Origin: Sphingomonas sp.
GTDB lineage: Bacteria; Pseudomonadota; Alphaproteobacteria; Sphingomonadales; Sphingomonadaceae
Assembly (NCBI RefSeq): GCF_030145815.1
Contig: NZ_JAIXHL010000002.1
Coordinates: forward strand, 231,141 to 295,140
Length of the DNA stretch: 64,000 nt
Reading direction: 5' to 3'
Shown here: positions 1-52,013 of the stretch, piece after piece
Numbering within the stretch: position 1 is the stretch's first letter
How the letters are laid out: each line of letters begins with the position of its first letter
Translations under genes and position numbers: made by a program
Notes under the pieces: model-generated
Databases searched by the model: none
Told to the model about the DNA's origin: nothing
What the model saw: the letters and a program-made list of their open reading frames with translations, nothing else

Positions 1-2
1 TG

Positions 3-1112: not shown

Positions 1113-1355
1113 TGATGGAGGTCGACGGGGGAACCCTTCGATCGCCATTAGTGTCAATTCGCCGGTCGTTCATAGGGACCACTTCGCACCCCAATAGCGG
1201 TTATTCAAGCTAACCTATGACGGCCCTAAACCTGACGATCACCATTGGCAGCTCTGATCTGCGATGGAATGAGGCGCTGGTCTACCCGTACTCCACAGGC
1301 TAGCATCCCGCTCAAGCCCCACCGGGCTAAAAGACCGCGGGGAACAGGGGGTGTG

Positions 1356-2672: not shown

Positions 2673-2676
2673 GTAG

Positions 2677-4641
2677 ATGGCCACGATCGAGTATGATCCG
2701 GCTGACGAGCTGCTTATCCTGCGCGGCGCGGGAACGGTCGTCCGACATCCGCTATTGGCGGCATTCACCCGCCAGGTCGGCGGAGCGCTCGATGATGATG
2801 GGTCGCTGCGGATTCCGACCGCTCCCGAGGAACTCACCAACCGCTATCAGACGCTTTCTCGATTGCTGGCGAAACTCGCCGTCGAGATCGAGACCGGCGG
2901 GCATGTCTCGGACGCGTTGGACCGCGTCGAGTCGGAGGAGCAGCAGTTCGTAGAATTCTCGCGGCAGGCTCGTGCGATCTGGGATGCGCAGATAGACACC
3001 GAAGCCTTCCGTGATTTCGTCGCTGTCGTCGAGGAGGCCTGCCCGGGTCGCACCTTCTATCGCAAGCAGCTCCTCTCGGCGTTCCATCTCGCCTTCTCGC
3101 AAAATGCGTGCAATTTCTCGGTGCCGGGCGCGGGCAAGACCTCGGTGGTCTACGCAGCCTATGCCTACCTTCGAAGTTTGCCGTCAGAGGACCCGAAGTC
3201 GGTCGATCGCCTCCTGATTGTCGGGCCGCTCTCCTCGTTCAAGGCGTGGGAGGACGAGTTCGCCTCGATCTTCAATCACCAGCCCGTGTCGCGCCGTCTT
3301 TCCGGTGGTGTGCCGACATTGGATCGGACCGATCACCTTCGTGGGATCAGCGTCAACTCGCGTTCAACAGAACTTACGCTCACCACCTATCAGACACTGG
3401 CGAACATGGAGGATGAGTTCCGGACCTTCCTCATGCGGGTCGCCCCCCGCGCGATGGTGGTTCTGGACGAGGCGCATTACATCAAGAGCGCGGATGGGCT
3501 GCAGGCCGCCGCGGCGTTGCGGCTCGCCCCACTAGCCCGTGCACGCGTGGTGCTCACGGGGACGCCGGCGCCCAACGGTTACGAGGACCTCGCGAACCTG
3601 TTCCGCTTCATCTACCCGACACGAAACATCACGGGGTTCCCGACGGCCTCCCTGCGGGCCATGACGGACGGCTTGATGCCCGCCGCCATCCCAGAGCTCA
3701 AATCCAAGATCGAGCCGTTCTACACGCGCATCCGCAAGAGCGACCTGTCGCTGCCCGACGCCGAGGAAAGGCGCGTCGCCGTGCCGATGTCGGCGGACCA
3801 CGAACGCATCTACCGGAGCCTCGAGAACCGCATCGTACCGCACCTGAAACAGCAGATGGACGATCCCTCGGCGACGATCAGGGTTCGGGCGCGGCTGATA
3901 CGCCTTCGCCAAGCGGCCGTGAATCCGGAGCTCCTCCTGCGCCCACTCGAGACCGAGGATGGTATTTTCGACACGGGCGGAAGCGGCGATCTCAACATCG
4001 CCGAACTCGAGGTGGCCGACCTGATCAGGAACTTCTCCGCCAGGACGGACCTCGCCCGCCTCGGGGTGTGTCGGACATTGACCATCAGCGTGCTGGCCGA
4101 TCAGGGGAAGATCCTGATCTGGTCCTATTTCCTCGGGAACCTCGACCTATTGCGGCGTGGGCTCGGTGACCTTGCGCCTTTCATCGAGGTCCTCACCGGC
4201 GCGACCCCCGTGGCCAGTCGCGAGGATGACGCGGCCGTTGAGCTTGGCACGCGAGAGGAAATCATCGACCGGTTTCACTCCACCACCGACCGGGCGATCT
4301 TGATCGCGAACCCTCAAGCGGTCGGTGAATCGATCTCGCTGCACAAGGCATGCAGGACAGCCATCTATTTTGACCGGGACTTCAACGCGGGCCGCTTCAT
4401 TCAGTCAAAGGACCGCATCCACCGATACAATCCAGCCGGCGGCGAAGCGGTCACTTATCATCATCTGGTCACGCCCGGAACCGTCGATCAGGATATCGAC
4501 ACTCGGCTCACGGTGAAGGAACGTCGACTTGCGGACCTCGTAGACAAGGATGACATCCCGCTGTTGACGGCGGCCGATGACAGCGACCTCAGCGATCTGC
4601 GCGCTATCTTCGAGGCATATGAGCGCCGCAAGGCCCAGTGA
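2677..4641 (+). CDS. SNF2-family DEAD/DEAH-box helicase/translocase
   Basis: This is a 654-residue superfamily 2 ATPase. The Walker A motif (SVPGAGKTS) is near residue 150, the DEAH box (VVLDEAHYIKS) near 262, motif III (LTGTPAPNGYED) near 290, and helicase motif VI (QSKDRIHRYNP) near 575 in the second RecA lobe. The order and spacing match SNF2/RapA-type double-stranded DNA translocases. An N-terminal region of about 140 residues precedes the motor and may bind a partner. It follows the ParB-like gene by 4 bp and its end overlaps the DUF3883 gene by 23 bp, so the three are translationally coupled. The expected role is ATP-driven tracking along DNA for a nuclease partner, as in several restriction and anti-phage complexes. 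The motor call is secure; the defence role is inferred. Confidence 0.88.
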   Translation: MATIEYDPADELLILRGAGTVVRHPLLAAFTRQVGGALDDDGSLRIPTAPEELTNRYQTLSRLLAKLAVEIETGGHVSDALDRVESEEQQFVEFSRQARAIWDAQIDTEAFRDFVAVVEEACPGRTFYRKQLLSAFHLAFSQNACNFSVPGAGKTSVVYAAYAYLRSLPSEDPKSVDRLLIVGPLSSFKAWEDEFASIFNHQPVSRRLSGGVPTLDRTDHLRGISVNSRSTELTLTTYQTLANMEDEFRTFLMRVAPRAMVVLDEAHYIKSADGLQAAAALRLAPLARARVVLTGTPAPNGYEDLANLFRFIYPTRNITGFPTASLRAMTDGLMPAAIPELKSKIEPFYTRIRKSDLSLPDAEERRVAVPMSADHERIYRSLENRIVPHLKQQMDDPSATIRVRARLIRLRQAAVNPELLLRPLETEDGIFDTGGSGDLNIAELEVADLIRNFSARTDLARLGVCRTLTISVLADQGKILIWSYFLGNLDLLRRGLGDLAPFIEVLTGATPVASREDDAAVELGTREEIIDRFHSTTDRAILIANPQAVGESISLHKACRTAIYFDRDFNAGRFIQSKDRIHRYNPAGGEAVTYHHLVTPGTVDQDIDTRLTVKERRLADLVDKDDIPLLTAADDSDLSDLRAIFEAYERRKAQ

Positions 4642-5584
4642 CGGCCTGCTCCCCGCTGGCTCGACCATCTCGATGGTCGAGCTGCTGGCGAGAAGGTCTG
4701 ACGGGACGTCGATAGACCACCTGTTGAGGGACCTTGCCGCGATCAACAGCATATCTTGGTCGAGGGCCCGGAACACGGTCGCAAAGCTGATCGCGTATGG
4801 CTTGTTCGAGACCGACGCCAAATCCTTGGTCCGGCTGGCTCCTGGAGAGCGCCCGGACGTGCCGGATTGGATCGCGGAGCGGGTCGCCGCCGAGTTCACC
4901 GCGCTGCTGACAAAGGCCGAAGCCTGGTCATGCGTAGGTCGTGATCCGGCGACCGGCGACCTGACGATCGACGCCATGACACTGCCGCCGATCCGGGACG
5001 GCTTGGCGATGTGGCTAACCGAATTCGCGATCGCCCAGCGCGCGGCGGTTCAGACGCGTTTCTGGAAGGTGTCCGACAATCACAACAACGCCTTCCTGAG
5101 GGGCGCTCGAGATGCGAACAAGGAGACGCCGCGCCGGGCGAAGTCGGCCGAGCGCCTCGCTGCCGATCTAGCTCAGCAGGCCGAGGCTGGCGCGGCCGCC
5201 GAGGTATGGGTCGTCCAGTATGAACGCGAGCGGTTGTCCGATCATCCATTGCGAGACCAGATCCGCCGGGTCTCGGAGGACGACGTCTCGGCGGGATATG
5301 ATATCGTGTCATTCGCTTCGGTCCATTCGATTCGGCACGATCGGTTCATCGAGGTTAAGTCGTATGGCGAACGGAAGGTGTTCCATTGGTCGCGCAACGA
5401 GATCGCGACCGCTGTGGAATTTGGTGAGGACTATGCGCTTTACCTCGTGGATCGCGAGCGGTGCGAGCAGGCGGGATATTCTCCCCACATGATAACTGGA
5501 CCCACGCCAGAGATGTTCGCCTTGCCCGACAGCGGTTGGCGCGTTGAGGCCACCTCGTTCGAGCACGTCGCCATCTCGGAATAA
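4619..5584 (+). CDS. DUF3883 (NO VEIN C-terminal) domain protein
   Basis: The protein is 321 residues if it starts at the ATG at 4619, inside the end of the helicase gene; the ORF track starts 14 codons earlier. The C-terminal third has the DUF3883 hallmark (RFIEVKSYG, then FHWSRNEIATA, then YALYLVD) around residues 242-280. This family is predicted to have a restriction-endonuclease-like fold, and the E-V-K triad here fits the PD-(D/E)XK pattern. The N-terminal half looks like a helical DNA-binding region (SISWSRARNTVAKLIAYGLF resembles a winged helix). DUF3883 proteins recur beside helicases and methyltransferases in anti-phage loci, so it is probably the nuclease arm of this cassette. It ends two bases from the stop of vsr, which runs the other way. 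Confidence 0.75.
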   Translation: MSAARPSDGLLPAGSTISMVELLARRSDGTSIDHLLRDLAAINSISWSRARNTVAKLIAYGLFETDAKSLVRLAPGERPDVPDWIAERVAAEFTALLTKAEAWSCVGRDPATGDLTIDAMTLPPIRDGLAMWLTEFAIAQRAAVQTRFWKVSDNHNNAFLRGARDANKETPRRAKSAERLAADLAQQAEAGAAAEVWVVQYERERLSDHPLRDQIRRVSEDDVSAGYDIVSFASVHSIRHDRFIEVKSYGERKVFHWSRNEIATAVEFGEDYALYLVDRERCEQAGYSPHMITGPTPEMFALPDSGWRVEATSFEHVAISE

Positions 5585-5586
5585 AT

Positions 5587-6006
5587 TCAGCTCAATCGAG
5601 GAGACCCCAGGAAGTCAGTCAATCGCCTCGTCAGGTCGGCTATGTCGCGGGTCTCGCACTCCCAGATCGTCAGCGTCTCCCAGCCAAGTGCGGACGCGTC
5701 ACGCTCGAGCCGGTCATCCCGCTCACGATTGCGCGCGAACTTCGCCTTCCAGAACTCGGTGCGGGTGGAAGGTGTCCGGGAGAGGCTGCAGCCGTGGGCA
5801 TGCCAGAAGCAACCATGGATTTGCACGCAGCGTCGACGAGCTGGGAATGCGATGTCAGGTCGACCAGGGACCTCGCCGAATTGGACGCGGAAGCGGTAGC
5901 CCAGGCTGTGAAGGAGCCGACGAACGACCAGTTCTGGTTTGGTGTTCGCCCTGCGGATGCGCGCCATGTGCGCGCTACGTTGTTCAGGTGTCAGCCGATC
6001 CGCCAT
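5587..6006 (-). CDS. vsr: Very short patch repair (Vsr) mismatch endonuclease
   Basis: At 139 residues this is the usual length for Vsr. The family motifs are complete: RRANTKPEL in the N-terminal helix, PGRPDIAFP with catalytic Asp51, HGCFWHAHGC with the active-site His and zinc-binding residues, then FWKAKFARNRERD. Vsr nicks next to T:G mismatches that arise when 5-methylcytosine deaminates, so it protects against mutation caused by a C5-cytosine methylase. It lies 32 bp downstream of just such a methylase on the same strand, the classic dcm-vsr arrangement. Its 3' end abuts the DUF3883 gene tail to tail with a 2 bp gap. Confidence 0.92.
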   Translation of the reverse strand: MADRLTPEQRSAHMARIRRANTKPELVVRRLLHSLGYRFRVQFGEVPGRPDIAFPARRRCVQIHGCFWHAHGCSLSRTPSTRTEFWKAKFARNRERDDRLERDASALGWETLTIWECETRDIADLTRRLTDFLGSPRLS

Positions 6007-6038
6007 TACCGGCGATATAGGGTGGAGCTATGGGATGT

Positions 6039-7709
6039 TCACCGTGCTGAAGTCTCCGACAACCTCCTTTTGGGCTGATTGCGGATCGGTGCGGCCAAGA
6101 GGGGATTCACGCGCGACGCGATGAGCAGCCCGGCCAGGATCAAGGCCGCGTTACGCTGTAATTTGGGTACGCCCGGGATATCCGCGAGGCCGTCGCGATA
6201 CTCATGCTCGAGCATCGAGGCTATCAGGCGCTGTGCCTCCGCGTCGTGATCGGCCAGCGCATCGATCAGGCTCGAGCCCGTTTCGCTGAGTTTGTCCAAC
6301 ACCATGAAGGGACGTGTCCCGCCGGGCCCATGATGGCTCCAGACCGCCTGCAGGTTGTGGATGTCGGCCGTCGATATGAAGTCCGCGAGATCATCGAGCG
6401 GCGCGGTGACTGCCTCCGTCAGTTCGATCGACATGGCCGATGTCAGCCTCCGCGCCATGGATTGGTCCAGGACGAGACTGAGTATCTCCTTCGACGTCCC
6501 GAAGTAGAACGCGACCTCCCATCGGACATCCGCCCCGCAGTGATCGTTCCGAAACTCGAAACGGACGCCGCTCTTCAATTGCAGGCTTGGTATCGCGAAC
6601 CGGAAGGTCCGCGTGGTCGGATAGCGCGCTCCTGCGCGATCCGGTGGCGTCTCAACTGGAGTGGGCACCGGCCGCACCAGCGCCTTGGCGACGTCTGACA
6701 ACGGCTGCACCTTGTCAGCTGGGTGGTCTTGGAGGACATGCCCCATCAGGTAGGCGAACGCGGGCGGTACGGCGTTCCCGATCATGCGGAGCTTCTGACC
6801 GTAGTTCGCCCCGTAAAACTGGAAGGTAATCGGAAAACCTTGGAGGCTGGCTCGCTCCCGCAGCGTGAGCCGCCGATATTCCTCACGATCGGACCCGGTC
6901 GCGATGACGATGCTCTCGCGTGACACGCGCGTGCATGTGGCGGTAATCGTCCGAACGGTCCGATCCAAGGGATCGGGGAATGGCATGGCATTGTAGACGG
7001 TGTGCGTTACCTTGTGGGACCGGTTGATCCGGGCCTCCTCGAAATTCAGGACGTCCTCCTCGACATGATCGATCAGGTCCTCGCGTGGTATGGCGATGCC
7101 AAAGATGGGATCGACGACAATCTCATTCTTCAGCGAGCGGATCACATCGCCCAGGAGCCGTGGCCGGGTGTTGGCTTGGTAGGATTCCAGCAGGCCGATG
7201 TCGAAGTTGCCGGCGACGCACCGCCGTCGCCGTTGAGGCAGGCCATAGTTGGCCATGTCAATGATATGCGTCACGCAGCCCAGATGATTGAACTCCTCGA
7301 GCGCTCCACCCTCCTTGAGTTCCGCCTCGATGATCTTCGCCACACGGGGCACGTTCTCCATTGCCCAGACACGCGGTTGCAGATGATCGACGATGGTTAG
7401 GAAATGCTTCACGTCTTCTAGACCATCGGCGATGTCACCGCCCCCACCACGATTGCTGTAGGAGAACTGGGTACAGGGGGGGCTGCCGACGACGATGTCT
7501 ATGTCGTCAGGGAGGTCTGCGAGCGCTAGCCGGCGGATATCAACCGTCTGCGCTTGATGGAAGTTGTTCTTGAAGTTGGTCTCGTTCGCAGGTCCCCATT
7601 TCTCGTAGGACGCGACAACTTCGACGTTCGCCAAACGCAACCCCAATGACCATCCGCCGACACCGGAGTAGAGGTCGATCGCCCTCGGCCTTTTCGATTT
7701 GCGTCCCAT
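6039..7709 (-). CDS. dcm: DNA (cytosine-5-)-methyltransferase
   Basis: The catalytic part, residues 1-325, has motif I (DLYSGVGGWSLGL), motif IV (GSPPCTQFS, catalytic Cys near 79), motif VI (ENV at 118-120), motif VIII (QRRRR near 160) and motif X (GNAVPP at 311-316). It is therefore a complete C5 methylase. A C-terminal extension of about 230 residues, unusual for a simple Dcm, shows no motif I know. I use the ATG at 7709 because GGGGG lies just upstream and motif I follows within 20 residues; the ORF track's start at 7952 adds 81 residues without methylase character. It probably forms an operon with vsr and modifies host DNA for the convergent ParB/helicase/DUF3883 cassette. The target sequence cannot be read from the protein. 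Confidence 0.93.
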   Translation of the reverse strand: MGRKSKRPRAIDLYSGVGGWSLGLRLANVEVVASYEKWGPANETNFKNNFHQAQTVDIRRLALADLPDDIDIVVGSPPCTQFSYSNRGGGGDIADGLEDVKHFLTIVDHLQPRVWAMENVPRVAKIIEAELKEGGALEEFNHLGCVTHIIDMANYGLPQRRRRCVAGNFDIGLLESYQANTRPRLLGDVIRSLKNEIVVDPIFGIAIPREDLIDHVEEDVLNFEEARINRSHKVTHTVYNAMPFPDPLDRTVRTITATCTRVSRESIVIATGSDREEYRRLTLRERASLQGFPITFQFYGANYGQKLRMIGNAVPPAFAYLMGHVLQDHPADKVQPLSDVAKALVRPVPTPVETPPDRAGARYPTTRTFRFAIPSLQLKSGVRFEFRNDHCGADVRWEVAFYFGTSKEILSLVLDQSMARRLTSAMSIELTEAVTAPLDDLADFISTADIHNLQAVWSHHGPGGTRPFMVLDKLSETGSSLIDALADHDAEAQRLIASMLEHEYRDGLADIPGVPKLQRNAALILAGLLIASRVNPLLAAPIRNQPKRRLSETSAR

Positions 7710-7860
7710 AATAGCCCCCACGAATACACGGGAACCCTTCAATAGATCCTCTCGCGCTATTGCAAGATCTTTCGTCGCCACGTGTGCGGCTTCAAGTCGG
7801 AGCAAGCCGACTAGCCGTGTCAGCCGCCGCCCTCGCGTCGGGTATGCGCGGTCGCATTTT

Positions 7861-8184
7861 TTGTCGCCAAAGCTGGAAGACCGCCGGGACGCCACGGAGA
7901 AGCTGTGGGACGCATTCGAGCGCATGAAGACGCTTGAACCGGGCTCGGACAAGAAGGTGCAGGCCGACGCGCTCCCTCAATCGTGCTGCGAATCCCGGAT
8001 CGAAGATGAGAGTTGCGCTGGGGCAAGAGGCGAGGGCGTTGACCATGCTCGGCAACAGCCTGCGCATCCGTCACTCGGAGGTGACGCAGGAGATGATCGA
8101 CCGATCCGAGCAGCTTGACTGGCTTTCGTGCGGATGTTCAGCTTAGTGCGCTTTCTCCTCCTTGGCGCCGGGCGCAGCGACTGA
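7861..8184 (+). pseudogene. Frameshifted C-terminal remnant of an unknown gene
   Basis: Coding-like sequence runs through two reading frames and ends cleanly. The first part (KLEDRRDATEKLWDAFERMK) is in one frame to about 7973. The next part (ALGQEARALTMLGNSLRIRHSE) is shifted by one base to about 8125. The end (VRMFSLVRFLLLGAGRSD, stop at 8182-8184) returns to the first frame. No single ORF spans it and the N-terminal part is missing, so I read it as a decayed 3' fragment with two compensating indels. The wording resembles C-termini of proteins found in accessory islands, possibly HEPN/Abi-like, but I cannot name the family. It lies between the divergent methylase and Argonaute operons. Confidence 0.55.
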
Positions 8185-8280
8185 GAATCATGGTCAGGCG
8201 CGCGATCCAAAGCGCGAGGCCCTTGCAATGTTCTTGGTGCGTTCCCAACTGCTGACGGAGCTCTATGGGAGGGGCGACGC

Positions 8281-9729
8281 ATGAGGCAGCTTGAGGTTGA
8301 GAACCAGCTCCGCGATGTGGTCAGCCGCATCATCCTTCAGGTGGAGCTGGCGACGGCGCAGGGTAGGACCGACATAAACCTGGCGCTGGAGGATGCGTTC
8401 ATCCCCATCCTGAAGTCGGTCTTCAACCTGCCGCACCTTATAAACCTCAACCGCAAGCAGAAGAACTATCCCGGCATCGACCTCGGCGACGACCACGACC
8501 GCGTCGCCTTCCAGGTGACGTCCACGACCGGCCTGGAGAAGGTGAAGTTCACGGTCGGCCAGTTCATGACCCGATCCTACTACAACACGTTCGATGAGCT
8601 CTACGTGCTGATGCTCGGGAAGAAGCAGTCATCTTACAGCCAAAACGCCGTGAACGCGCTTCTGACGGAGGACTTTTCCTTCAATTGCGCCAAGCACATC
8701 ATCGACCTCGGTGACATCCTGGGCATGGTGACCGGACTGCGGTTGGCCGCGCAGGAGCGAGTGCTGGCGGAGTTGAGGCACATCCTCGGCGAGGTTGACG
8801 CCTTCATCAGCATCCGTTCCGAGACGGTCGAGGCGCCGACCGCGATCACAACCAATCTGCAGGAGATCCGGCTGCCCGATGCCGTGTACGTCGCCGAATT
8901 GACGATCAACGATAAGGCAGTGGTCGAGCGGGCGAAGGTTGAGCTGAGCTACAGGGGGTATGCCAAGGGTCGCAGGGCGGTCGTGAAGATGGCCCTGCTC
9001 CTGAACGACGTGCAGACCGACGCATGGGTCTGTCATGACAACAAGCTGTTCTCGTTCACGGATATCGCCTCCAGCGGCCTCGTCAGCATCGTGGACGAGG
9101 GCACCGTGGAGCGGCTGGACGTCGCCGATCTGGCAGACTCCGACGAGCTGGACAACGTCAACGTCCTGAAGCAGCTGCTCGCGGCCGAGGCTCGTCAGAT
9201 GCTCAAGGCGCGCAACGTGCGCGCCCATCCGAAGGACGGCTTCTTCTTCTTCGTGCCGTTCGAGGATGGCCAGGACATCCGCAGGGAGGCCTGGGTCGGC
9301 AAGGCCAACGCGACCCGCACTGTCTATGTGGTCAGGTATCAGAAGAAGGACCCGGACAAGGTCCTGCACCATCAGCACTTCTCATTCGAGCTGACGTTCT
9401 CGAACCTTGGTGGGACCTGGTTCGCCCAGATCGTGCCGAGTTGGTATTTCTCTTACGACGGCTTCAGGCGGTCGAACTGGCACGACAAGCTGCTGTCCAA
9501 GCAGAAGCGGCTCGAGCTCAACCTGAGCGTGCGGAATGCGGTGCGTTTCGTCGCGTACTTCCTGTTGAACAGCAGCGGGGCGGATGAGGCGGATGAACAG
9601 TCGCTGAGGTTCGGAACGCTACTCGAGTTCGACGTGGATCGCGATGGCGAGGAGGACCTGGACGACGGGGACATCGCCGCGGATGCCGCCTTCGATGACG
9701 ACATGACCGATGATGAGGTGGCGGCATGA
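8281..9729 (+). CDS. SMEK-like domain effector with putative APAZ region, partner of short Argonaute
   Basis: This 482-residue protein has an N-terminal domain (about 1-150) matching the SMEK-domain pattern: DINLALEDAFIPIL, then KNYPGIDLGDD (65-71), then AFQVTST (76-82) and LEKVKFTVGQF. The acidic residues E38 and D67 followed by Q78-V-T resemble a diverged PD-(D/E)XK nuclease core, which is inference. Residues about 190-450 are a separate beta-rich region with an aromatic stretch (PSWYFSYDGFRRSNW) and a helix (KRLELNLSVRNAVRF). By position and gene order this is probably an APAZ domain, the module that pairs effectors with short Argonautes. The C-terminal 40 residues are very acidic. A GGGAGG site lies 9 bp before the ATG. 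The stop overlaps the Argonaute start (ATGA), implying coupled translation and a heterodimer. Confidence 0.75.
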   Translation: MRQLEVENQLRDVVSRIILQVELATAQGRTDINLALEDAFIPILKSVFNLPHLINLNRKQKNYPGIDLGDDHDRVAFQVTSTTGLEKVKFTVGQFMTRSYYNTFDELYVLMLGKKQSSYSQNAVNALLTEDFSFNCAKHIIDLGDILGMVTGLRLAAQERVLAELRHILGEVDAFISIRSETVEAPTAITTNLQEIRLPDAVYVAELTINDKAVVERAKVELSYRGYAKGRRAVVKMALLLNDVQTDAWVCHDNKLFSFTDIASSGLVSIVDEGTVERLDVADLADSDELDNVNVLKQLLAAEARQMLKARNVRAHPKDGFFFFVPFEDGQDIRREAWVGKANATRTVYVVRYQKKDPDKVLHHQHFSFELTFSNLGGTWFAQIVPSWYFSYDGFRRSNWHDKLLSKQKRLELNLSVRNAVRFVAYFLLNSSGADEADEQSLRFGTLLEFDVDRDGEEDLDDGDIAADAAFDDDMTDDEVAA

Positions 9730-11135
9730 AACTGACCACCCTTGCAGAGCCGCTTCTCGAGTTCGGCACCGGAACGCACATCTGCCCGCGCACGGGCATC
9801 GAGAACATGGGAGTCTATGACAAGCGCGATGAGCTGCGCCGGACCGAGCTTCGGATTGGCGTCGTTGGTCGCGGTGAGGGCATCGACCTCTTCGACGAAT
9901 GGCTGGAGCGCTGCCGGGAGGGCGTCGAGCGCAAGAAGGAATCCCAGCTCCTGAACCTTTTCCGTGGCTTTGGAGGGGTGAACCAGAGCTATGGCTTTCT
10001 CACTAGGCTGATCAACTCGCCCCAGTATGCACGGCTGCTCAAGAAGTCGGAGATCACGGCGATCGTGAAGCTGGCCTCTCGCGCCGACCGAGTAGAGCGG
10101 GCCGTAAATCTCTATTACGAGCAGATCCGCTTCCTGGCCGAGAACAGGTCCGTCGACGTGATCGTCTGCGTCATGCCGAACGAGATGTTCGATTCCGTGA
10201 CCACCGCCGCAGTCGGCGACGACAAGGATGATAGCGAGCTCGAGCACAACTTCCGGAGGAGGCTGAAGGCCCGGTGCATGCACCTCGGGACGCCGCTTCA
10301 GCTCGTCCGGGAGAAGACCATCCTCATCACCAAGTTCGCCGGAGAGCAGCAGGATCCCGCGACGAAGGCCTGGAACTTCTGCACGGCCCTCTACTATAAG
10401 GGGAACCGGACGATCCCCTGGCGGCTGGTCGAGGACGGCTCCAAGCTGAGATCGTGCTACATCGGCATCGGGTTTTACAAGAGCCGTGACGGCGAGACAG
10501 TGTCGTCCAGTCTGGCACAGGTCTTCGACGAGTTCGGCCATGGCATCATCCTGCGCGGGACGCCCGTTTCAATCGACAAGAAGAACCGGCATCCCTTCCT
10601 GAGTGAGGATCAGGCCTACGAACTGCTCAGCGACGCGCTGGACGAGTATGACCGCGCGTTGGAGCACATGCCGGCCCGGATCGTCATCCACAAATCCAGC
10701 CGGTTCCGCGATGGCGAGCGCAAGGGCTTCTTGCGGGCGTTGAAGGAGAAGGGCATCCGCTCGAAGGATTTCGTCGCCATCACGGACACCGACGTCCGCC
10801 TCTTCAGTGACAAGAAATATCCGCCCAAGCGAGGAACCCTGCTAACCATCTCGGAGACTGAAGGCGTCCTGTATACGAGGGGCACCGTTGATTTCTACAA
10901 GACTTATCCGGGACAGTACGTGCCGAGCCCGCTCAAGATCACGGTCTACGAGCAGGACTCTTCGCTCGAGAGCCTGTGCGATGAGATTCTTGGTCTGACC
11001 AAGATGAACTGGAACAACACCCAGATGGACGGGCGACTGCCTATCACGCTCGAATGCGCGAAGAAGATCGGCGACATCATGAAGTATGTGAGCGTGAACG
11101 AGAAGCCACAGGTCAGTTACAGCTTCTACATGTGA
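9726..11135 (+). CDS. Short prokaryotic Argonaute (MID-PIWI), catalytically inactive
   Basis: The 469-residue protein consists of MID and PIWI only, the length of short pAgos. The N-terminus has the family opening (LEFGTGTHICPRTGIE, residues 11-26), then RIGVVGRGE and a Rossmann-like MID segment (VDVIVCVMPNEMF). The basic patch RRRLKAR (177-183) with PLQLV is the likely guide 5'-phosphate pocket. In PIWI the usual first catalytic Asp is replaced by Gly (YIGIGF, 245-250) and the next position is IVIHKSSRF (319-327), so the slicing tetrad is broken. The C-terminus (KMNWNNTQMDG, PITLECAKKIG, ending in SFYM) is typical. It starts inside the end of the SMEK-effector gene. The expected role is guide-directed sensing of invader nucleic acid that activates the partner, by analogy with SPARTA, SPARSA and SPARDA systems. 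Confidence 0.9.
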   Translation: MKLTTLAEPLLEFGTGTHICPRTGIENMGVYDKRDELRRTELRIGVVGRGEGIDLFDEWLERCREGVERKKESQLLNLFRGFGGVNQSYGFLTRLINSPQYARLLKKSEITAIVKLASRADRVERAVNLYYEQIRFLAENRSVDVIVCVMPNEMFDSVTTAAVGDDKDDSELEHNFRRRLKARCMHLGTPLQLVREKTILITKFAGEQQDPATKAWNFCTALYYKGNRTIPWRLVEDGSKLRSCYIGIGFYKSRDGETVSSSLAQVFDEFGHGIILRGTPVSIDKKNRHPFLSEDQAYELLSDALDEYDRALEHMPARIVIHKSSRFRDGERKGFLRALKEKGIRSKDFVAITDTDVRLFSDKKYPPKRGTLLTISETEGVLYTRGTVDFYKTYPGQYVPSPLKITVYEQDSSLESLCDEILGLTKMNWNNTQMDGRLPITLECAKKIGDIMKYVSVNEKPQVSYSFYM

Positions 11136-11884
11136 TCGTGGCTACCGCCAGCCGGCTGATCTGACACCGCAGCGCTGACGCTGATTGGATGATTCGTGTC
11201 GGGACTGAGCGGCAATAATCGCGGCTTGGCAGTTGCTGGACATGTTGGCATCGTAGATGAAATCGACGGTCTCGGCGCATCGTTGTGCGCCATCTGTGCA
11301 CGCATATTGCGACGAACACTTTATAGCGCACCCAACCGGATTGGAATTTGCGACCCAACGCTTAGAATGGTCGTGCTCTATCCTTCATTGAGTCTGACGG
11401 ATTAGGGGGCAGTCGCGAGGCAGATTTTCGCTAACCGCCCAAGGCCCGCAAGCCAACAAATCCCAGTTGGAGCCGTTCAATTCCCGCCGCCGATGATGTC
11501 CGCTTTCGCGTTCGTGCCGCCAAAACTACCAGTCCGCCAACGGCTCAGAATAAGACAACCACCGCCCCGGTTGGGTACTAGCGGCTCGGATGCAGTCATC
11601 TACAACGAGCGCTTCAGCGAAAGCATTCGTATTGCGAACGGGCGCGATCGGGCATATAATAGTAGCTCGCTTCAATGCGATGAGCCGAGATCAGATCGCA
11701 CCCGGGCAGCGTCCCGTAATGTGAGTCGGCGATAGAAGGGTGGCAGTTGGCACCCATGTTCCGGCGGTGGCGATGCCCGCGCGGACTGGCCGGCCCTAAT
11801 GGCTCGGTCATGGAGCTTTCCGCGTGAACAACGCTCGCGGATCTCATCCCGCATTGGCCTCGATGCAGGCCGAAAGGACATCGC
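11136..11884. other. Non-coding or decayed stretch, no gene supported
   Basis: About 750 bp separate the Argonaute operon from the DUF1281-type gene. All ORFs here are short, lack ribosome binding sites and do not resemble known proteins. The right end, just before 11885, carries a GAAAGGA ribosome binding site for the next gene. The stretch probably marks the seam between the defence cargo and mobile-element genes. No tRNA, CRISPR array or clear long repeat was seen. Confidence 0.5.
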
Positions 11885-12412
11885 ATGCCTAATTTTGTCT
11901 ATGCCGGCTTCACCGTGACCGGCGACCCCGTGGAAGTTCAGCGCTTCAAGGACAGGATGATCAAGCCGGAGCATGAGGTCGGCATGGCCGCCTACTTCGA
12001 CATCCCGTCTCCGCCGCGAAAGCAATATGTCGATCCGGCGACACCGGAAGGTGCCAAGCTGACCCTGGACTTCAACGGCATCATCCAGATGCCGCCCGAG
12101 AAGGATTGCCCGAACTGGGAGGAATGGGCGATCGAGCACTGGGGAACCAAATGGAACGCGCAGTCGGTCGATATGCGCGATGAGGGACCGGGCCGGTTCT
12201 GGTTTCAGTTCACGACCGCCTGGGATTTCCCGACACCCGTGTTCGAGGCGCTCGCCCGGGAGTTCCCGACCCTGGTCTTCGAGGGATCCGCTTATGAGGA
12301 GGATGACGCGTTCGCACTCGCCGGCCAGATCAACGGCGACAATACCTGGGGACCGGCCGTGATCGACCGGGGCGAAGAGCCCGACGAGGATGACGAAGGC
12401 GATCCCTTCTGA
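11885..12412 (+). CDS. YubB ferredoxin-like (DUF1281) protein of plasmid/phage type
   Basis: This 175-residue acidic protein begins MPNFVYAGFTVTGDP, the usual opening of the DUF1281/YubB family. It goes on with DFNGIIQMP, WAIEHWGTKWNA and FQFTTAWDFPTPVFEALA, which are the conserved blocks of that family. Members occur on conjugative plasmids, ICEs and phages and have a ferredoxin-like fold of unknown function. The C-terminus is an acidic tail (EEPDEDDEGD). The start is supported by GAAAGGA a few bases upstream. It leads a short run of mobile-element cargo genes to the left of the recombinase. No catalytic residues can be assigned. Confidence 0.8.
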   Translation: MPNFVYAGFTVTGDPVEVQRFKDRMIKPEHEVGMAAYFDIPSPPRKQYVDPATPEGAKLTLDFNGIIQMPPEKDCPNWEEWAIEHWGTKWNAQSVDMRDEGPGRFWFQFTTAWDFPTPVFEALAREFPTLVFEGSAYEEDDAFALAGQINGDNTWGPAVIDRGEEPDEDDEGDPF

Positions 12413-12443
12413 CCTGATCCCGTTCCTCATCGAAAGAAACATC

Positions 12444-12671
12444 ATGTCCGACTCAACTGGACCCACCTTCGCCAGGAGCGGCAAGCAACCGGATCCGTTG
12501 CCGGTTTGCGCGATCTGCCCAAAAGCGATGTGGTATCGCTCGTCCAAACGGCTGCGCGCCTTCTGCCGCGAGCTTCGCACCATCACCTGGCAGGACGACG
12601 AAGTCGAGCCGATCCTCGAATGCGATGGCTATGAGGCAACGCTGGCGCCGCCCGACGAGGACCGGCGATAA
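12444..12671 (+). CDS. Small Cys-containing hypothetical protein of mobile elements
   Basis: A 75-residue protein starting at the ATG at 12444; the ORF track begins 18 codons earlier, inside the preceding gene. It has a CAICPK motif followed by two more Cys residues (FCRE and LECDG), possibly a small zinc-binding site. It follows the DUF1281-type gene by 31 bp and is probably in the same transcript. I believe similar small proteins accompany DUF1281 proteins in sphingomonad elements, but no search was run. Function unknown. A strong hairpin lies just downstream and probably ends its transcript. Confidence 0.6.
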   Translation: MSDSTGPTFARSGKQPDPLPVCAICPKAMWYRSSKRLRAFCRELRTITWQDDEVEPILECDGYEATLAPPDEDRR

Positions 12672-12687
12672 GATGGAGTGCTCGTCC

Positions 12688-13011
12688 CTAGCCGCCACGA
12701 TGGAGCGCGGCGATGCGTTCGCTGCGCTCCATCGTGGCCGGGAACAGGCTCCGGAGCTCGGTTTGCCGGATGGCAAGCTTGAGCCCGGCCGCCATCGATC
12801 GACGCTGGGCGCGGCTGGGCCGACGGTCGAAGTCCAGGATCGTGGCCTGCGCGCCGCTTCGCATCGCAATGATGCGGCGGCGGATGCGGGCAGCGCGAAG
12901 GGTGAGCACGATGCCCATGGCCGTTGCGATCAGGTCAACGGTCAATCGGGCGATCACCGTGCAGCCCTCCCAGGCAGCAATCATGATCGTCAGCGTGATG
13001 AAGACGGACAT
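12688..13011 (-). CDS. Hypothetical small membrane-anchored protein
   Basis: The 107-residue frame starts with a hydrophobic segment (MSVFITLTIMIAAWEG, then LIATAMGIVLTL), possibly two short membrane helices. A basic, helical tail follows (RAARIRRRIIAMR, then RRPSRAQRRSM). An AAGGAA site lies about 8 bp before the ATG, which favours it over the plus-strand ORFs of similar length in the same place. It converges on the small Cys-rich gene, and its last codons include one arm of the hairpin at 12694-12738. No function can be given. Confidence 0.42.
   Translation of the reverse strand: MSVFITLTIMIAAWEGCTVIARLTVDLIATAMGIVLTLRAARIRRRIIAMRSGAQATILDFDRRPSRAQRRSMAAGLKLAIRQTELRSLFPATMERSERIAALHRGG
12694..12738. 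terminator. Perfect 15-bp inverted repeat, probable bidirectional terminator
   Basis: The arms GCCACGATGGAGCGC (12694-12708) and GCGCTCCATCGTGGC (12724-12738) are perfect reverse complements around a 15-base loop. It sits between two converging genes, so a transcript-ending hairpin for both is the simplest reading. There is no T tract, so a protein-binding palindrome or a mobile-element end is also possible. Confidence 0.6.
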
Positions 13012-13120
13012 ATCCCTGTTCCTTTTTTCCTGATCCCATCCGGATCATCCTCTCCTGCCCACCAGATAAATTTGAGAATGTCCCAAGCTTGGGTGCCAGC
13101 CGGGCTGGCAGTTCAACGCC

Positions 13121-13312
13121 ATGGACCGGCACAGCGACAGCGACGATATCTCCGCGCGCTTTGCGGTCGCGCGCGGCGTCGCGGGGGAACACCCGCCCCA
13201 CTCGCGTCTGGTCCATACCGATATTCCAGAGCAGCTTCCGGTCCTGCCAGGCGAAAGCGATCTGATCCTCCAGCATATCGGCAATGCGCTCGCCAGCATC
13301 TTCGACCAGTAG
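13121..13312 (+). CDS. Small hypothetical protein upstream of the recombinase
   Basis: The frame encodes 63 residues with strongly GC-biased third positions, ending ILQHIGNALASIFDQ 24 bp before the recombinase start. No good ribosome binding site precedes the ATG, so the true start may differ. Minus-strand ORFs of 105-113 aa cover the same bases and are less convincing. It could be a recombinase accessory factor by position, but nothing in the sequence proves it. The rest of the 13,012-13,336 gap holds no other supported gene. Confidence 0.4.
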   Translation: MDRHSDSDDISARFAVARGVAGEHPPHSRLVHTDIPEQLPVLPGESDLILQHIGNALASIFDQ

Positions 13313-13336
13313 TGTCGTGACGCAGGAGGATGCACC

Positions 13337-15031
13337 ATGACCGAACGCCGACGCGCCTTCATCTATCTGCGGGTCAGCAATGACGATGAAGGCGGCAACA
13401 ACGCCTCCAGCGCGGCGCAGGAGGCCGCCTGCCGCTCCCTGTGCGAACGCGAAGGTATTGCGGTGGCCGAGGTGTTCGAAGAACTGAACGTGTCAGGCCG
13501 AAAGCTGCAGCGCAGGCAGTTCGACCGGATGATCGCACTGGCGACCGCTCCTACCCGCCCGGTGGACGTCGTCGTCGTTTACGCGCTGAGCAGATTCACC
13601 CGGCGCCTGCTCACTCAGGTCACCGCCGAGCACAAGCTCACCGAGGCCGGGGTGAAGCTGATATCCGTCATCGAGGGGATGGGCGACGATCCCAACAGCC
13701 GGATGATGCGCGGGTTCATCGCGGTGATGAACGAGAAGTACGCCAACGATGCATCCACGTTCACGTGCCGCGATCGGCGCGGCAATGCGCAGGCGGGGTA
13801 CTGGAACGGTGGTCCGGTGCCGTTCGGCTATGAATCCCGCGTCGTGACTATTGAGGGACGCAAGGAGCGCAAGAAGCTGTTCGCGCGCGAAGACGAGGCG
13901 GCAACCGTCCGCCTGATCGTCAAACTGGCCTGCTCCGGACTGACCGGCCAGCCGATGGGCACGCGAGCGATCGCAAAATATCTGAACGACAATGGCTACA
14001 CGATGCGGGGCAGGAAATTCTACCACAGCAACGTCGATGGCATCCTGACGCGCGAACATTATGCCGGATCCTACCGCGACCGCACGCGCGACGATAACGG
14101 CGTGCCCCCAAGCGCTGCCGACGAGATCGTTGTCGCATGCCCAAAGATTATCGAGCCCGATGTGATGGCCCGCGTTGCCGCAATCCGATCACGGGCGGCC
14201 CCGCGCGTGACGGCGCCGCGCACCACCAACTCGCCAGTGCTTCTCGGCGGCCTGGCGACATGCGGGCATGCCGAATGCAACGCCGGCATGGTGATCAGGA
14301 GCGGCAAGGGCGGCCGGTACCGCTATTACGTCTGCAACCGCAAGGCGACGGCCGGTGCGGATATTTGCGGTAGCAGCTCGATCCGCGAAGATGCGCTCGA
14401 CACCATCGTACTGGATGGCCTGCTCCACCGTGTGCTTTCCCCCGACCGCTTGCGCCAGCTTCTCGCTGACGTGCTCGACCGTTCCGATGACGCGAGGCAG
14501 CGCCGCGAAAGGGATCTCGGCCGCGTTCGGCGCGAGCGCGTCGCGGCGGAGACGCGGCTCCGGCGGCTGCTCGAGATCGTCGAGGAAGGCATGATGAGCG
14601 TGCGCGATCCGATCTTCGCAGCGAAGCTCGCAGAAGCCAATGCGTCCATCGCCGCACTTTCGGAGACTGAGCGCAGTCTAGCCGGGCAGCTCGGCAGCGC
14701 GTCGCGCCAGATCACGGACGAAGCGATCCAACAATTCGGTAATGCGCTGCGTGCTCGCATCATGGCCGAGGATAGCGCCATGCGCCGCGCCTACGTTCGC
14801 CTGCTCGTCTCCAGCGTGACGGTCAACGACAACGAAATCGTCATAGCGGGGTCAAAGGCAGCCCTCGAAAATGCTGCCCAACAAGGCGATCCCGCAGCTT
14901 GCGCCGCGGTGCCCAGTTTTGACCGGAAGTGGTGCCCCTGGCCGGACTCGAACCAGCATGCCTTGCGGCGGTCGATTTTGAGTCGACTGCGTCTACCATT
15001 TCGCCACAGGGGCAGCGAGCGGGCTGGCTAG
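13337..15031 (+). CDS. Large serine recombinase (site-specific integrase/resolvase)
   Basis: This 564-residue protein has a resolvase catalytic domain at the N-terminus (YLRVSNDDEGG with the nucleophile Ser14, then ALSRFTRRLL). A recombinase domain follows (GYWNGGPVPFGY, GTRAIAKYLNDNGY), then a zinc-ribbon with paired Cys (CGHAEC, CNRKA, ADICGSSS) near residues 310-350 and a coiled-coil region (about 380-460). A GGAGG site precedes the ATG. Large serine recombinases integrate and excise elements without high-energy cofactors. The last 30 or so residues (WCPWPDSNQHALRR) are not real domain sequence: they are the antisense translation of a tRNA-Leu gene. The gene therefore ends across the island junction. 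It is the only recombinase in the window and probably moves this island. Confidence 0.9.
   Translation: MTERRRAFIYLRVSNDDEGGNNASSAAQEAACRSLCEREGIAVAEVFEELNVSGRKLQRRQFDRMIALATAPTRPVDVVVVYALSRFTRRLLTQVTAEHKLTEAGVKLISVIEGMGDDPNSRMMRGFIAVMNEKYANDASTFTCRDRRGNAQAGYWNGGPVPFGYESRVVTIEGRKERKKLFAREDEAATVRLIVKLACSGLTGQPMGTRAIAKYLNDNGYTMRGRKFYHSNVDGILTREHYAGSYRDRTRDDNGVPPSAADEIVVACPKIIEPDVMARVAAIRSRAAPRVTAPRTTNSPVLLGGLATCGHAECNAGMVIRSGKGGRYRYYVCNRKATAGADICGSSSIREDALDTIVLDGLLHRVLSPDRLRQLLADVLDRSDDARQRRERDLGRVRRERVAAETRLRRLLEIVEEGMMSVRDPIFAAKLAEANASIAALSETERSLAGQLGSASRQITDEAIQQFGNALRARIMAEDSAMRRAYVRLLVSSVTVNDNEIVIAGSKAALENAAQQGDPAACAAVPSFDRKWCPWPDSNQHALRRSILSRLRLPFRHRGSERAG
14930..15013 (-). tRNA. tRNA-Leu (anticodon CAA)
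   Basis: Read on the minus strand, the gene starts GCCCCTG and ends CAGGGGC-A-CCA, giving a perfect 7-bp acceptor stem with encoded CCA. The anticodon arm is GTCGA-CTCAAAA-TCGAC, placing CAA at positions 34-36, and the T arm contains GGTTCGAGTCC. A variable arm is present, as expected for class II tRNA-Leu. The 3' half lies inside the recombinase coding frame, which is typical where an element has integrated into a tRNA 3' end. Its 5' end faces rpoB. Confidence 0.93.
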
Positions 15032-15083
15032 ACGATGGGCCGCGCGGCGGCAAGCCTTTAACGGCCCATTGGTGCCGATGCGT

Positions 15084-15112
15084 TTGACACTGGCCCTGCC
15101 CCTGCCTATATC
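15084..15112 (+). promoter_or_regulatory. Probable sigma-70 promoter of rpoBC
   Basis: TTGACA (15084-15089) and TATATC (15107-15112) are separated by exactly 17 bases, close to the ideal housekeeping promoter. Transcription would start near 15119 and leave a leader of about 200 nt before rpoB. A palindrome (CCGACCGGTCGG, 15124-15135) lies at the start of that leader. The promoter lies in the core DNA, about 70 bp from the tRNA-Leu gene. The rest of the 15,014-15,318 gap shows no gene. Confidence 0.7.
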
Positions 15113-15318
15113 GCGCCCCTACCCCGACCGGTCGGGACATGGCACGCCGTCGCGCAGCGCGCCGTACGAATGGACCGGACAGGGATCATAGACGCTTGAG
15201 AGGCTGAGTTTTTCCCCGTTTCGACGCAGGGAATCGCTCGGCCCTTTTGGCGTCTGTCTGCGTGCCTGTCCCGGCGGATACCGGGGCGAAATTCAGGCTG
15301 AGAAGGCGAAAACAGCAC

Positions 15319-19464
<4,146 letters not shown>

Positions 19465-19473
19465 GCGATCCAG

Positions 19474-19582
19474 TCCCCCTCTCTCCGCTTGCGGGGAGAG
19501 GGTCGGGGAGAGGGGCCTGAATGGCGCGCTCTCCCACCGGACTCCCCCTCTCCCCTGCCCTCTCCCCTGAAGGAGAGAGGGA
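19474..19582. repeat. Pair of inverted REP-like units between rpoB and rpoC
   Basis: One unit (about 19481-19515, CTCTCCGCTTGCGGGGAGAG and onward) and a second (about 19544-19577) are reverse complements of each other with a few mismatches. Each unit itself folds into a small hairpin. GC-rich CTCTCC/GGAGAG units of this kind are scattered through many proteobacterial genomes. In the transcript the pair would form a long stem immediately before the rpoC ribosome binding site, and could stabilise the rpoB end or tune rpoC translation. Confidence 0.75.
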
Positions 19583-19598
19583 GTTTGAGGAAAAAGAA

Positions 19599-23879
<4,281 letters not shown>

Positions 23880-23914
23880 TCGCCCGGTTCAGCGGATCGC
23901 GCTGACCAAAAAAT

Positions 23915-23947
23915 GCCGCCGCCCGAGGCATCGGGTGGCGGCTTTTT
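23915..23947 (+). terminator. Rho-independent terminator of rpoBC
   Basis: GCCGCCGCCCGA and TCGGGTGGCGGC form a 12-bp stem with one G-T pair and a 4-base loop, followed directly by TTTTT. It lies 36 bp after the rpoC stop and just before the oppositely oriented porin gene. Confidence 0.9.
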
Positions 23948-23981
23948 GTTGGTACCGGACAGGGCCGGAAAGCCCGACGCC

Positions 23982-25355
23982 TCAGAAGAAGGTCGACAAG
24001 GTCAGATAGCCGAACTTCATGTCGCCCGTTGCCGGCGCATTGGGCGCGTCGGTCAGGAACCGCCCCTTGGCGAGGAAGGCTGCGCCCGCCTCGACCCGCA
24101 ACTTCTTTGGCACCAGCCAGTTGCGCACGCGACCCTCGACCTGGGTACCGGCATCGCGGCCCGATGCGCCGCTGGCGTCGCGCACCGCCGTGGCGGCGAA
24201 GCTGTCGGTCGGGGACGCGAGCAGGAACTTGCGCGCCTTCACCGCAAAATCCCATGCCTTGCTCGGCTTCGCCTCGATCGCCACGCCCGGGCTGACGACG
24301 TTCGACCAGCTCGCCGGGCCATAAAGGCTGAGCGGCCCGAAATCGCCGCGCCGTCCGCCGAACAGCGGGTCGAAGCGGCGATAGTCGGTGGCCGTCGTAT
24401 CCCCGCTGGCATAGCCGAAAAATGCGGTGACGCGCGGGGTCCAGCCCGACGCGAAGGTATAGCCAATCTCGACATTGGCCATGCCCGCGCGGACCTTGCG
24501 GTCGAGCAGGTCGCTCGCCGATGTCGATCCGCGCGTCGTGCCGCGCTGGAGCGCGCCTTCCACTTCGAAGTCGAGCTTGCCCTTGCCCGGCGTGCGATTG
24601 ACCCGGCCGCCAAAGGTGACGAGGTCGCGGTCGCGGGTCGCCCGGCCGGCGCGGTCGCGCTCGTCCAGCGCATAGGCAAAGACTTCGGCCTGCGCCCCGG
24701 CCAGCGCCTTGGAGCGGGTGTAGGACCCGCCCCAGAAATGCAGCCCGGCGTTGGCGCGATCCAGCTCGACCTTGTTGTCCTCGATCGACGCGCGGTCGGA
24801 TGGCAGCTTGTCGAACGGCCGAACCGCAATCAGATACACCCGGTCCCCGCGGGCGCTGCTCCAGTCGAGATTGACGCCGACAAAGCTGTTGGGCGAGTTC
24901 GACCAGTCAGGCCGGTCGAGCAGGCGACCCGAGCCCGACGATGCGGTGAAGCGACCGACGCGCAGCACGCCCTTCCCCTTTTGGCCCGCGACGGTGCCGA
25001 GATCCACGCCCAGATAGGCCTGGAGCGGTTCGAGCGCGTTGGTCTCGCTGGTCCCCGCGACCGACTGGCCATGCTGGAAATAGCTGCGCGCGTCGTCGAG
25101 TTCCGCGGTCAGATGGACGCCACCAAAATCATAGCGCGCAGTGACGAGCGTACGGAACGAGAGCATGGCGTCGCTGTCCGGGGCACCGGGACGCACCTGC
25201 CCGTCGACCACTTCGACCCGTGCGCGGACGCTGCCTTCGATCGTCAGCCCGGTGCTGTCGGCGTCCTTGCCCGATGCCGCGTGCGCGCCGCCTGCCGCTC
25301 CGATCAACAGCGCAACCGCCGCGCCGCTCAGCAGCGCGGCATAACCCGTCTTCAT
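23982..25355 (-). CDS. Alginate-export-family outer-membrane porin
   Basis: The 457-residue protein has a cleavable signal peptide (MKTGYAALLSGAAVALLIGAAGGAHA). A beta-barrel follows with alternating aromatic/polar strands and a terminal Phe (LTLSTFF), the sorting mark for the Bam machinery. Motifs such as ELDDARSYFQHGQSV, AYLGVDLG and GRFTASSGSGRLLDRPDWSN match the alginate-export (AlgE-like) barrel family. In sphingomonads these proteins are general or sugar-acid porins rather than alginate exporters, since no alginate genes are nearby. The ATG at 25355 has GAGGA 9 bp upstream; the ORF track's TTG start adds five residues. It faces rpoC tail to tail and follows another porin gene on the same strand, 240 bp away. 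Confidence 0.85.
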   Translation of the reverse strand: MKTGYAALLSGAAVALLIGAAGGAHAASGKDADSTGLTIEGSVRARVEVVDGQVRPGAPDSDAMLSFRTLVTARYDFGGVHLTAELDDARSYFQHGQSVAGTSETNALEPLQAYLGVDLGTVAGQKGKGVLRVGRFTASSGSGRLLDRPDWSNSPNSFVGVNLDWSSARGDRVYLIAVRPFDKLPSDRASIEDNKVELDRANAGLHFWGGSYTRSKALAGAQAEVFAYALDERDRAGRATRDRDLVTFGGRVNRTPGKGKLDFEVEGALQRGTTRGSTSASDLLDRKVRAGMANVEIGYTFASGWTPRVTAFFGYASGDTTATDYRRFDPLFGGRRGDFGPLSLYGPASWSNVVSPGVAIEAKPSKAWDFAVKARKFLLASPTDSFAATAVRDASGASGRDAGTQVEGRVRNWLVPKKLRVEAGAAFLAKGRFLTDAPNAPATGDMKFGYLTLSTFF

Positions 25356-25596
25356 GCGTGATATCCTCAAACTGAACCCTGAGCCTCATTATAGACGGCC
25401 CGACCAAAGACCGGCGCGCGCGGCGCAATTGCGGTGGACCGGTGACCGACAGACCAGGCTATCGCGCCGCGCATCCCCCGGCCCGCTGAAGGACGATATT
25501 GACCGCTACCGAAGAAATACGGCGCCCCATTTGCGACCCGGTGTAGCGCAACAAGTATAAAGACAGCGTTTGCGCCCCGGCCCGCTCCGCATCGCT

Positions 25597-26754: not shown

Positions 26755-26857
26755 GACCTGATCCTCATGCAGTTTACGCATATTTTAGAGGATCATGACC
26801 GGGACCGCTCGTGATCGACCTATAAGAATTGCGACTTTCATTTCGGGGGATGTTGCT

Positions 26858-28804: not shown

Positions 28805-28844
28805 AGCACCGGGCCGGGTCGCCAATGACCCGGCCCGGTTCAAT

Positions 28845-29378
28845 TCAACCGAATACTTCGGGCGCGTCGAGATCCGCGCCCTTGGGATCCTCCCCGAAAC
28901 GGTTCGGGCCGGCTGTGCCCGCCGTGCAATACCAGACCAGCAGCACGATCGAACAGATGAAGCCGGCGAACAGTGCGATACCGCCAACGACCATCAGCGA
29001 CGATGTGCCGCCGCCCATTCCGCCCAGCGACTGCACCATTCCCACTCCTAACAGCACCGCACCGACCAAAATCGGCCCCATTGGGAGCAGAATCCACCAA
29101 CCGCTGCGATCGAGATCATGGAGTCGCCGTACGCTGACTGCCAGGCTGGGGATCAAGGTGCCGAGCGCAAAGATATTGCCGAGCAGTCCGCCCGACGCTG
29201 CACCAAACGGGTCGGCCGGGTCGGCAGTGGCACTGCCGTCTAGTCCGAGCGCGTTGTCGAGGATCGCAAGCACGATCGACACGATCACCAGGAACAGCGT
29301 GTACATCCAATATTCCTTGCGCCGCGAGCGGCCCGAAAAATCGAAATAGCGTTTCAGCGGCAGGATCATCCATTCCAT
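28845..29378 (-). CDS. DUF805 membrane protein
   Basis: This 177-residue protein has the DUF805 signature: an N-terminal amphipathic block (RYFDFSGRSRRKEYWMYTLF), a central VRRLHDLDRSGWW motif and four predicted membrane helices. The family is widespread in the inner membrane and has no assigned reaction. The ATG at 29378 has GGGGGAATG just upstream. It follows the chemoreceptor tail to tail and precedes comM on the opposite side. A second, divergent DUF805 gene is cut by the right edge of this window. Confidence 0.9.
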   Translation of the reverse strand: MEWMILPLKRYFDFSGRSRRKEYWMYTLFLVIVSIVLAILDNALGLDGSATADPADPFGAASGGLLGNIFALGTLIPSLAVSVRRLHDLDRSGWWILLPMGPILVGAVLLGVGMVQSLGGMGGGTSSLMVVGGIALFAGFICSIVLLVWYCTAGTAGPNRFGEDPKGADLDAPEVFG

Positions 29379-29458
29379 CGGTCATTCCCCCTTATTGTCC
29401 GACTCACCCTGGTGGCCAGCGGAAGCGGTCAGCCTAACGCGCTGAAACGGCGTTGCAA

Positions 29459-30967: not shown

Positions 30968-31073
30968 CAACGCCCCCCTTTTGTTCGCACACTCTTAACC
31001 GCTTTTCGTGCGAGGGAAACGGTTCATCTTCCCCGCGTCTTGCATCTGCAACACACGCCCCCACTTGGGAGCG

Positions 31074-51952: not shown

Positions 51953-52013
51953 CTGCTCTGAGCATTACGACTCCGCTTTATCAACGCGTAAAGCGCGTCA
52001 CTTGCTCCAATGC

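Follow-up and report, generated by a model that had tools for sequence, protein, structure and literature searches.

One question raised by this locus is how a large serine recombinase comes to share its coding sequence with a tRNA gene. Such genes count as the territory of tyrosine integrases; the general view is that serine recombinases avoid them. The window, that is, the whole 64,000-nucleotide stretch of Sphingomonas DNA that was analysed, is C2:231141-295140 of a draft assembly. The answer favoured here, and very probable from the comparisons that follow, is that window positions 1-14929 form the right-hand end of an integrated element of 47,058 bp, inserted by its own recombinase through exchange between a 51-bp attP and the CCA end of tRNA-Leu(CAA), with the recombinase gene split in the process.

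The recombinase gene and its tRNA

The open reading frame at 13337-15031 (564 aa) encodes a large serine recombinase. Its Pfam domains follow one another in the order Resolvase (4e-25), Recombinase (2e-11) and zinc ribbon (Zn_ribbon_recom, 1e-12), each exceeding its cut-off. ARAGORN finds a single tRNA in the window, tRNA-Leu(CAA), at 14930-15013 on the minus strand; one copy of this gene was detected in the assembly. Codons 532-559 of the recombinase (28 residues) are the exact antisense of the entire tRNA, much as a sequence-only reading had proposed for the last 30 or so residues. That reading also had the recombinase ending inside the tRNA gene, and here it needs correction: beyond the tRNA antisense the frame has 5 further codons, then TAG at 15029-15031; it therefore traverses the tRNA gene and does not end within it. 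The parts are:

13337-14929, plus strand: element-encoded part of the recombinase, 531 codons (Pfam; circular-form join)
14930-15031, plus strand: recombinase 3' end supplied by the host, WCPWPDSNQHALRRSILSRLRLPFRHRGSERAG, 33 residues and the stop codon
14930-15013, minus strand: tRNA-Leu(CAA), chromosomal and intact; 90 nt from TGG onward match the empty site exactly

Borders of the element

The borders are set by a natural empty site. In a genome of the same genus (G085, contig C5) the rpoB side, tRNA-Leu(CAA) and the left flank are continuous, without the element. The rpoB-side DNA is 93.7% identical to that of the source and the left flank (C2:196002-199020) 84.9%; counted from TGG into the tRNA, the first 90 nt are the same in both genomes. 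This places the element at C2:199012-246069, 47,058 bp, and the tRNA was unaltered by the insertion; the ends, the core and the integrity of the tRNA are all fixed by this sequence comparison. In the window these are:

1-14929: right-hand 14.9 kb (right third) of the 47,058-bp element, as bounded by the empty site in G085
14930-14938, plus strand: core or direct repeat TGGTGCCCC, antisense of the tRNA end ...GGGGCACCA-3'; other copy at C2:199012-199020

The leftward search covered the 231 kb left of the window, in which no tRNA repeat of at least 10 bp was found. The single repeat is the 9-bp TGGTGCCCC at C2:199012, 47 kb leftward and outside the window, and its occurrence is about what chance would give. 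As a second copy of 9 bp could arise by chance, the proof of the borders is the empty site, not the repeat. Taken alone, the null search for longer repeats would have pointed to a failed prediction of a second copy; G085 decided otherwise.

The sequence-only reading had placed an element at the tRNA 3' end, extending left, and the empty site agrees. It had also expected a second copy of that tRNA end outside the window, on its left side; such a copy does lie there, less than 100 kb away, but it amounts to 9 bp and not to a tRNA half. G085, which is free of the cargo, is also without the recombinase-tRNA junction. As in a tRNA island, both borders carry the tRNA 3' end as a direct repeat (9 bp), and a relative has the empty site. 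The long segment of identity of a tyrosine-integrase-type island is not found here: identity is confined to TGGTGCCCC, and the tRNA sequence is the host's own. To call the arrangement the usual signature of insertion into a tRNA 3' end is apt for tyrosine integrases; for serine integrases it is unusual (PMC9262239).

Two other left ends had been considered. One near C2:223 kb, a guess prompted by the mobilisation genes and the base composition there, proved mistaken; one near rplL on contig C4 was abandoned after the empty site was found. A candidate structural RNA near C2:223.2 kb, where short stretches match many genomes, had no Rfam match.

In the source rpoB adjoins tRNA-Leu (window 15014-30970; C4:183239) and is on another contig than rplL; in more distant relatives the tRNA adjoins the equivalent of the gene at 29459-30970, not rpoB. 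The rpoB-tRNA junction is independent of the element, as it is present in element-free G085. In G002, G004, G008, G010, G018, G023 and G024 the tRNA adjoins the equivalent of 29459-30970 and the downstream DNA is variable, so that those relatives could not fix the left flank. Farther along, window 50001-53000 has a G+C content of about 0.54-0.58, against 0.64-0.70 around it, possibly a further foreign segment.

Structure of attP and a proposed mechanism

Joining the element's ends in circular form yields a reconstructed attP, GTGCCCAGTTTTGACCGGAAGTGGTGCCCCACACAGGACAAAGATGGGCAC. This palindrome of 51 bp falls within the recombinase gene's 3' end and is laid out 13-8-9-8-13 as GTGCCCAGTTTTG-ACCGGAAG-TGGTGCCCC-ACACAGGA-CAAAGATGGGCAC. 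Serine-integrase attP sites are about 50 bp long, with 25-bp half-sites (PMC3783163), and the half-sites of about 25 bp reconstructed here agree with this. The combination of a short shared core (9 bp) and a long palindromic attP is that of the large serine recombinases.

The same layout is seen in Sinorhizobium meliloti, an independent, base-exact case of the same geometry. On pSymB of S. meliloti ml21 (CP140937) a homologous recombinase (33%) ends in tRNA-Arg(CCG); pSymB of ml66 (CP140944) is the matching empty site. The sites are attB, GAAAGAC / TGGCGCACCCGACAGGATTCG; attL, GAAAGAC / TGGCGCGCCCGAGAGGATGAAACTGGGCACTCC; and attR, GTGCCCAGTTTTGTTCGTAAG / TGGCGCACCC. The reconstructed attP is again palindromic, 13-8-9-8-13 bp. 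This element is 38.6 kb long and carries type I restriction-modification and Abi genes.

A mechanism can be proposed from these sites. Most likely, the recombinase brings its palindromic attP together with a tRNA gene at the CCA end, exchange takes place within TGGYG, and the element's own enzyme catalysed the insertion. As attP falls within the last part of the recombinase gene, integration splits that gene: the last 21 native codons would be sent to the element's left end, and tRNA-antisense codons would substitute for them in frame. On excision (attL x attR), the tRNA flank and the recombinase's native gene end would both be re-formed. Within the tRNA half of the site, the consensus over family loci keeps TGG.GC and the T-loop TCGAAC. 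The T-loop, 14-20 bp off centre, stands where the zinc ribbon is predicted to lie on attB by the model of PMC3783163, and may be a recognition feature; as most tRNAs share the T-loop sequence, the contact can only be inferred. Two features of these sites in the window are:

14909-14929, plus strand: P' half of attP (GTGCCCAGTTTTG-ACCGGAAG), also coding for VPSFDRK; the family-conserved arm
14948-14954, plus strand: T-loop TCGAACC, putative contact for the zinc ribbon within attB's tRNA half; 14-20 away from the centre (14934)

The attP layout was also used to look for left ends, with only the expected arm and core, scored over the 60 kb leftward of six further elements. A single outstanding left end was seen in G151 (17/19), G338 (18/19) and G436 (18/19), and a weaker one in G362 (15/19); the opposite strand peaked at 13-14. 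The remaining two, G525 and G365, had no left end in the 60 kb leftward; a later pattern scan, post hoc and not blind, gave an exact match in G365 about 74 kb from the recombinase, beyond the 60 kb. Elsewhere, two left-end-like att sites lie on one side of a single recombinase (G306:C10:344416 and 355881; G373:C2:76167 and 83874), which suggests tandem or nested elements.

Fate of the gene end

The native last 21 codons of the recombinase are found at the element's far end, C2:199012-199074; the circular-form join gives the native tail WCPTQDKDGHFYHWEISVKRP and a recombinase of 552 aa in all. Over 26 left ends, some of them without a known recombinase nearby or in tandem arrangements and assigned by distance only, the native tail is usually 20-22 residues long, with the pattern W[CR]..[DE][DE]K.GHS[DN]HW.[IV]S[VIL]. 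Both the conservation of the native tail and the palindromy of attP are read directly from the sequences. The integrated tails, made of tRNA antisense plus flank, have from 4 to 388 residues.

Does the exchange of tails matter to the enzyme? There is an even chance that it does not: attP would merely overlap the gene end, and any C-terminal tail would be tolerated. This competes only with the idea of a switch, not with the insertion itself. The spread of the integrated tails indicates that no particular one is needed, and native codons 1-10 coincide with attP, so that part of the conservation of the tail is held at the DNA level. Against neutrality, the native tail is conserved past the att arm (GHS[DN]HW.IS[VI]) and is nearly constant in length. 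Within native codons 11-20 the first two positions are better kept than the third at several codons, and third positions vary at codons 11, 17, 18 and 20. The tail's pN/pS is 0.54 in frame, compared with 0.55 and 0.82 frame-shifted; the controls separate weakly, and selection on the native tail at the protein level is for that reason graded likely, not proven.

The fuller proposal is more tentative, and on balance we doubt it: a phylum-wide serine-recombinase subfamily would recognise the T-arm/CCA end that tRNAs share, and would also swap a conserved tail for one encoded by the host tRNA; circular and integrated forms would then differ in activity or stability, biasing the element toward remaining integrated. 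There are precedents for parts of this. In SSV1, attP lies within the integrase gene, and insertion at a tRNA gives an element protein a different C-terminus. In phage BPs, attP lies inside the repressor gene and integration at a tRNA site alters the C-terminus of the repressor; the enzyme is a tyrosine integrase (PMC9262239). In contrast to BPs, the serine recombinase here changes its own C-terminus, which may affect its function; a regulatory role is only hypothetical.

A family at tRNA 3' ends

Homologues were drawn from genome contigs, plasmids, and order-, class- and phylum-wide genome searches, and 93 loci were analysed together. A complete tRNA gene lies on the opposite strand at 73 of them, its CCA end beginning at the same base, in the expected TGG codon; contact between recombinase and tRNA is therefore not a matter of chance. 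With the window's own locus included, TGG is in the recombinase frame at 71 of 74 loci, and the isotypes of the 74 targets are Arg (32), Leu (17), Thr (10), Ser (10), Met (2), and Glu, Asn and Ala (1 each). The sample contains near-duplicates (e.g. L045/L100, L046/L049, L050/L051), so these are counts of loci, not of events. Another 6 of 13 additional loci, some outside the class, also adjoin complete tRNAs. At E <= 1e-40, members occur in 55 of 401 genomes of the order and in 19 of 399 in the phylum sample.

The remaining 20 of the 93 homologues lack a complete tRNA; about 10 of those bear a truncated tRNA 3' end from the same TGG. At L105, L110, L111, L122, L125, L141, L142 and L156 the order is recombinase, truncated tRNA 3' end, then other DNA, an order suggestive of a second element inserted into that tRNA. 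Two plasmid members, L072 (pCAV1668-85) and L073 (pBH3a), share the usual junction AAATGGCGC but are without a tRNA; conjugation genes are the neighbours of one, and genes for mercury and aminoglycoside resistance those of the other. The host of the present element has a second, decayed family member at tRNA-Thr(CGT) (G000:C31:6927-8144; L139).

Targets have shifted within the family: on a tree of 68 members the target isotype has to change 14 times or more (for the 7 groups the minimum is 6, and shuffling gives a mean of 33.5). Alignment rows that are identical over the kept columns occur at different tRNAs: Thr(CGT) (L045) and Leu(CAG) (L046, L049); Arg(CCT) (L126) and Arg(CCG) (L148); Arg(ACG) (L159) and Arg(CCG) (L160). 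On the evidence of sequence, then, a widespread serine-recombinase subfamily uses the tRNA 3' ends of many isotypes.

Relation to known integrases

It is very improbable that a tyrosine integrase elsewhere in the element inserted it and that the serine recombinase is mere cargo. Such enzymes have tRNA 3' ends as their standard sites, and a study of tRNA hot spots in S. meliloti reported tyrosine integrases in all but one ambiguous case (PMC11476347); the S. meliloti element described above also has a gene annotated 'site-specific integrase'. However, at 9 bp the core is far shorter than that of tyrosine integrases, typically at least 25 bp (PMC9262239); the distance from serine recombinase to tRNA is constant in 73 loci; the recombinase's own coding end is the att arm, and the symmetric 51-bp attP has the serine-integrase form; and no tyrosine integrase appears in the Pfam results for the subset of the element's open reading frames that was scanned. 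That the contact is a coincidence or a remnant, in an island made by other events, is hardly credible: about one 9-bp repeat is expected by chance in 246 kb and the locus is also marked by the rearrangement that joins rpoB to tRNA-Leu, but in G085 that junction is older than the element and the flanks close exactly, which refutes this account unless G085 is misassembled.

Insertion by the serine recombinase itself sets the enzyme beside phiC31, Bxb1, Listeria A118 and SPbeta YokA, which it resembles in Resolvase-Recombinase-zinc ribbon architecture, very short core and attP of about 50 bp; it is a distant sequence match to the YokA structures 9dxh. Phage and ICE serine integrases use protein genes or AT-rich sites, whereas the present family uses tRNA CCA ends of many isotypes and has attP inside the end of its own recombinase gene. 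The nearest curated NCBIfam models are CcrA/B/C (CcrB, 95.9 bits against a family cut-off of 900). SCC inserts at the 3' end of the rlmH gene; the window enzyme differs from the staphylococcal Ccr proteins in failing the NCBIfam cut-off and in having a tRNA target instead of rlmH.

A review of mycobacteriophages states that tRNA genes are not used by phages whose integrase is a serine enzyme (PMC9262239). Multi-targeting large serine recombinases, in which one enzyme uses several genomic sites, were described by Durrant et al. 2022; their clade is rich in DUF4368 (63%) and uses AT-rich or other motifs, and the survey grouped targets by protein-coding gene, tRNA being absent from its main text (PMC10083194). 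The window recombinase has no DUF4368 match in Pfam and, unlike that clade, the present family has its several sites all at tRNA 3' ends. No description of a serine-recombinase lineage dedicated to tRNA genes was found in the open-access literature; TIGER/Islander may already list members.

Cargo and mobility

The part of the element within the window carries apparent defence genes:

1245-7952: unknown 475-aa protein, SNF2 helicase, NOV_C protein, Vsr and C5 DNA methyltransferase
8281-9729, plus strand: pAgo partner, nuclease-type, with SMEK_N domain (PADLOC Aga_REase, 610 bits)
9726-11135, plus strand: short pAgo (PADLOC pAgo_I, 613.6 bits; PDB Argonautes)

The short pAgo, close to the solved Argonaute structures 9qbp and 9qbl, and its SMEK_N partner (8281-11135) form a SPARDA-like pair; the cluster at 1245-7952 is possibly one defence or modification system. 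The left part of the element contains transport and catabolic genes, including a TonB receptor, an HpcH/HpaI aldolase, a DHDPS-family protein, an MFS transporter and an aldehyde dehydrogenase. Mobilisation genes are present as well, MobA/MobL and a TraI/MobP-like relaxase (MobP-type by Pfam; 148 bits in NCBIfam, against a cut-off of 250). No conjugation genes were found among the subset of open reading frames scanned. From this gene content the element is probably, if not provably, an integrative and mobilizable one.

Implications

With one enzyme at several tRNAs, the family looks like a set of natural multi-site integrases whose landing sites can be predicted and whose insertion spares the tRNA. 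Knowledge of the attP layout also bounds islands that carry defence, restriction and metabolic genes; such islands are otherwise hard to delimit, as the repeat is only 6-9 bp. Finally, the split gene end is a candidate for an integration-dependent switch, one that is directly testable.
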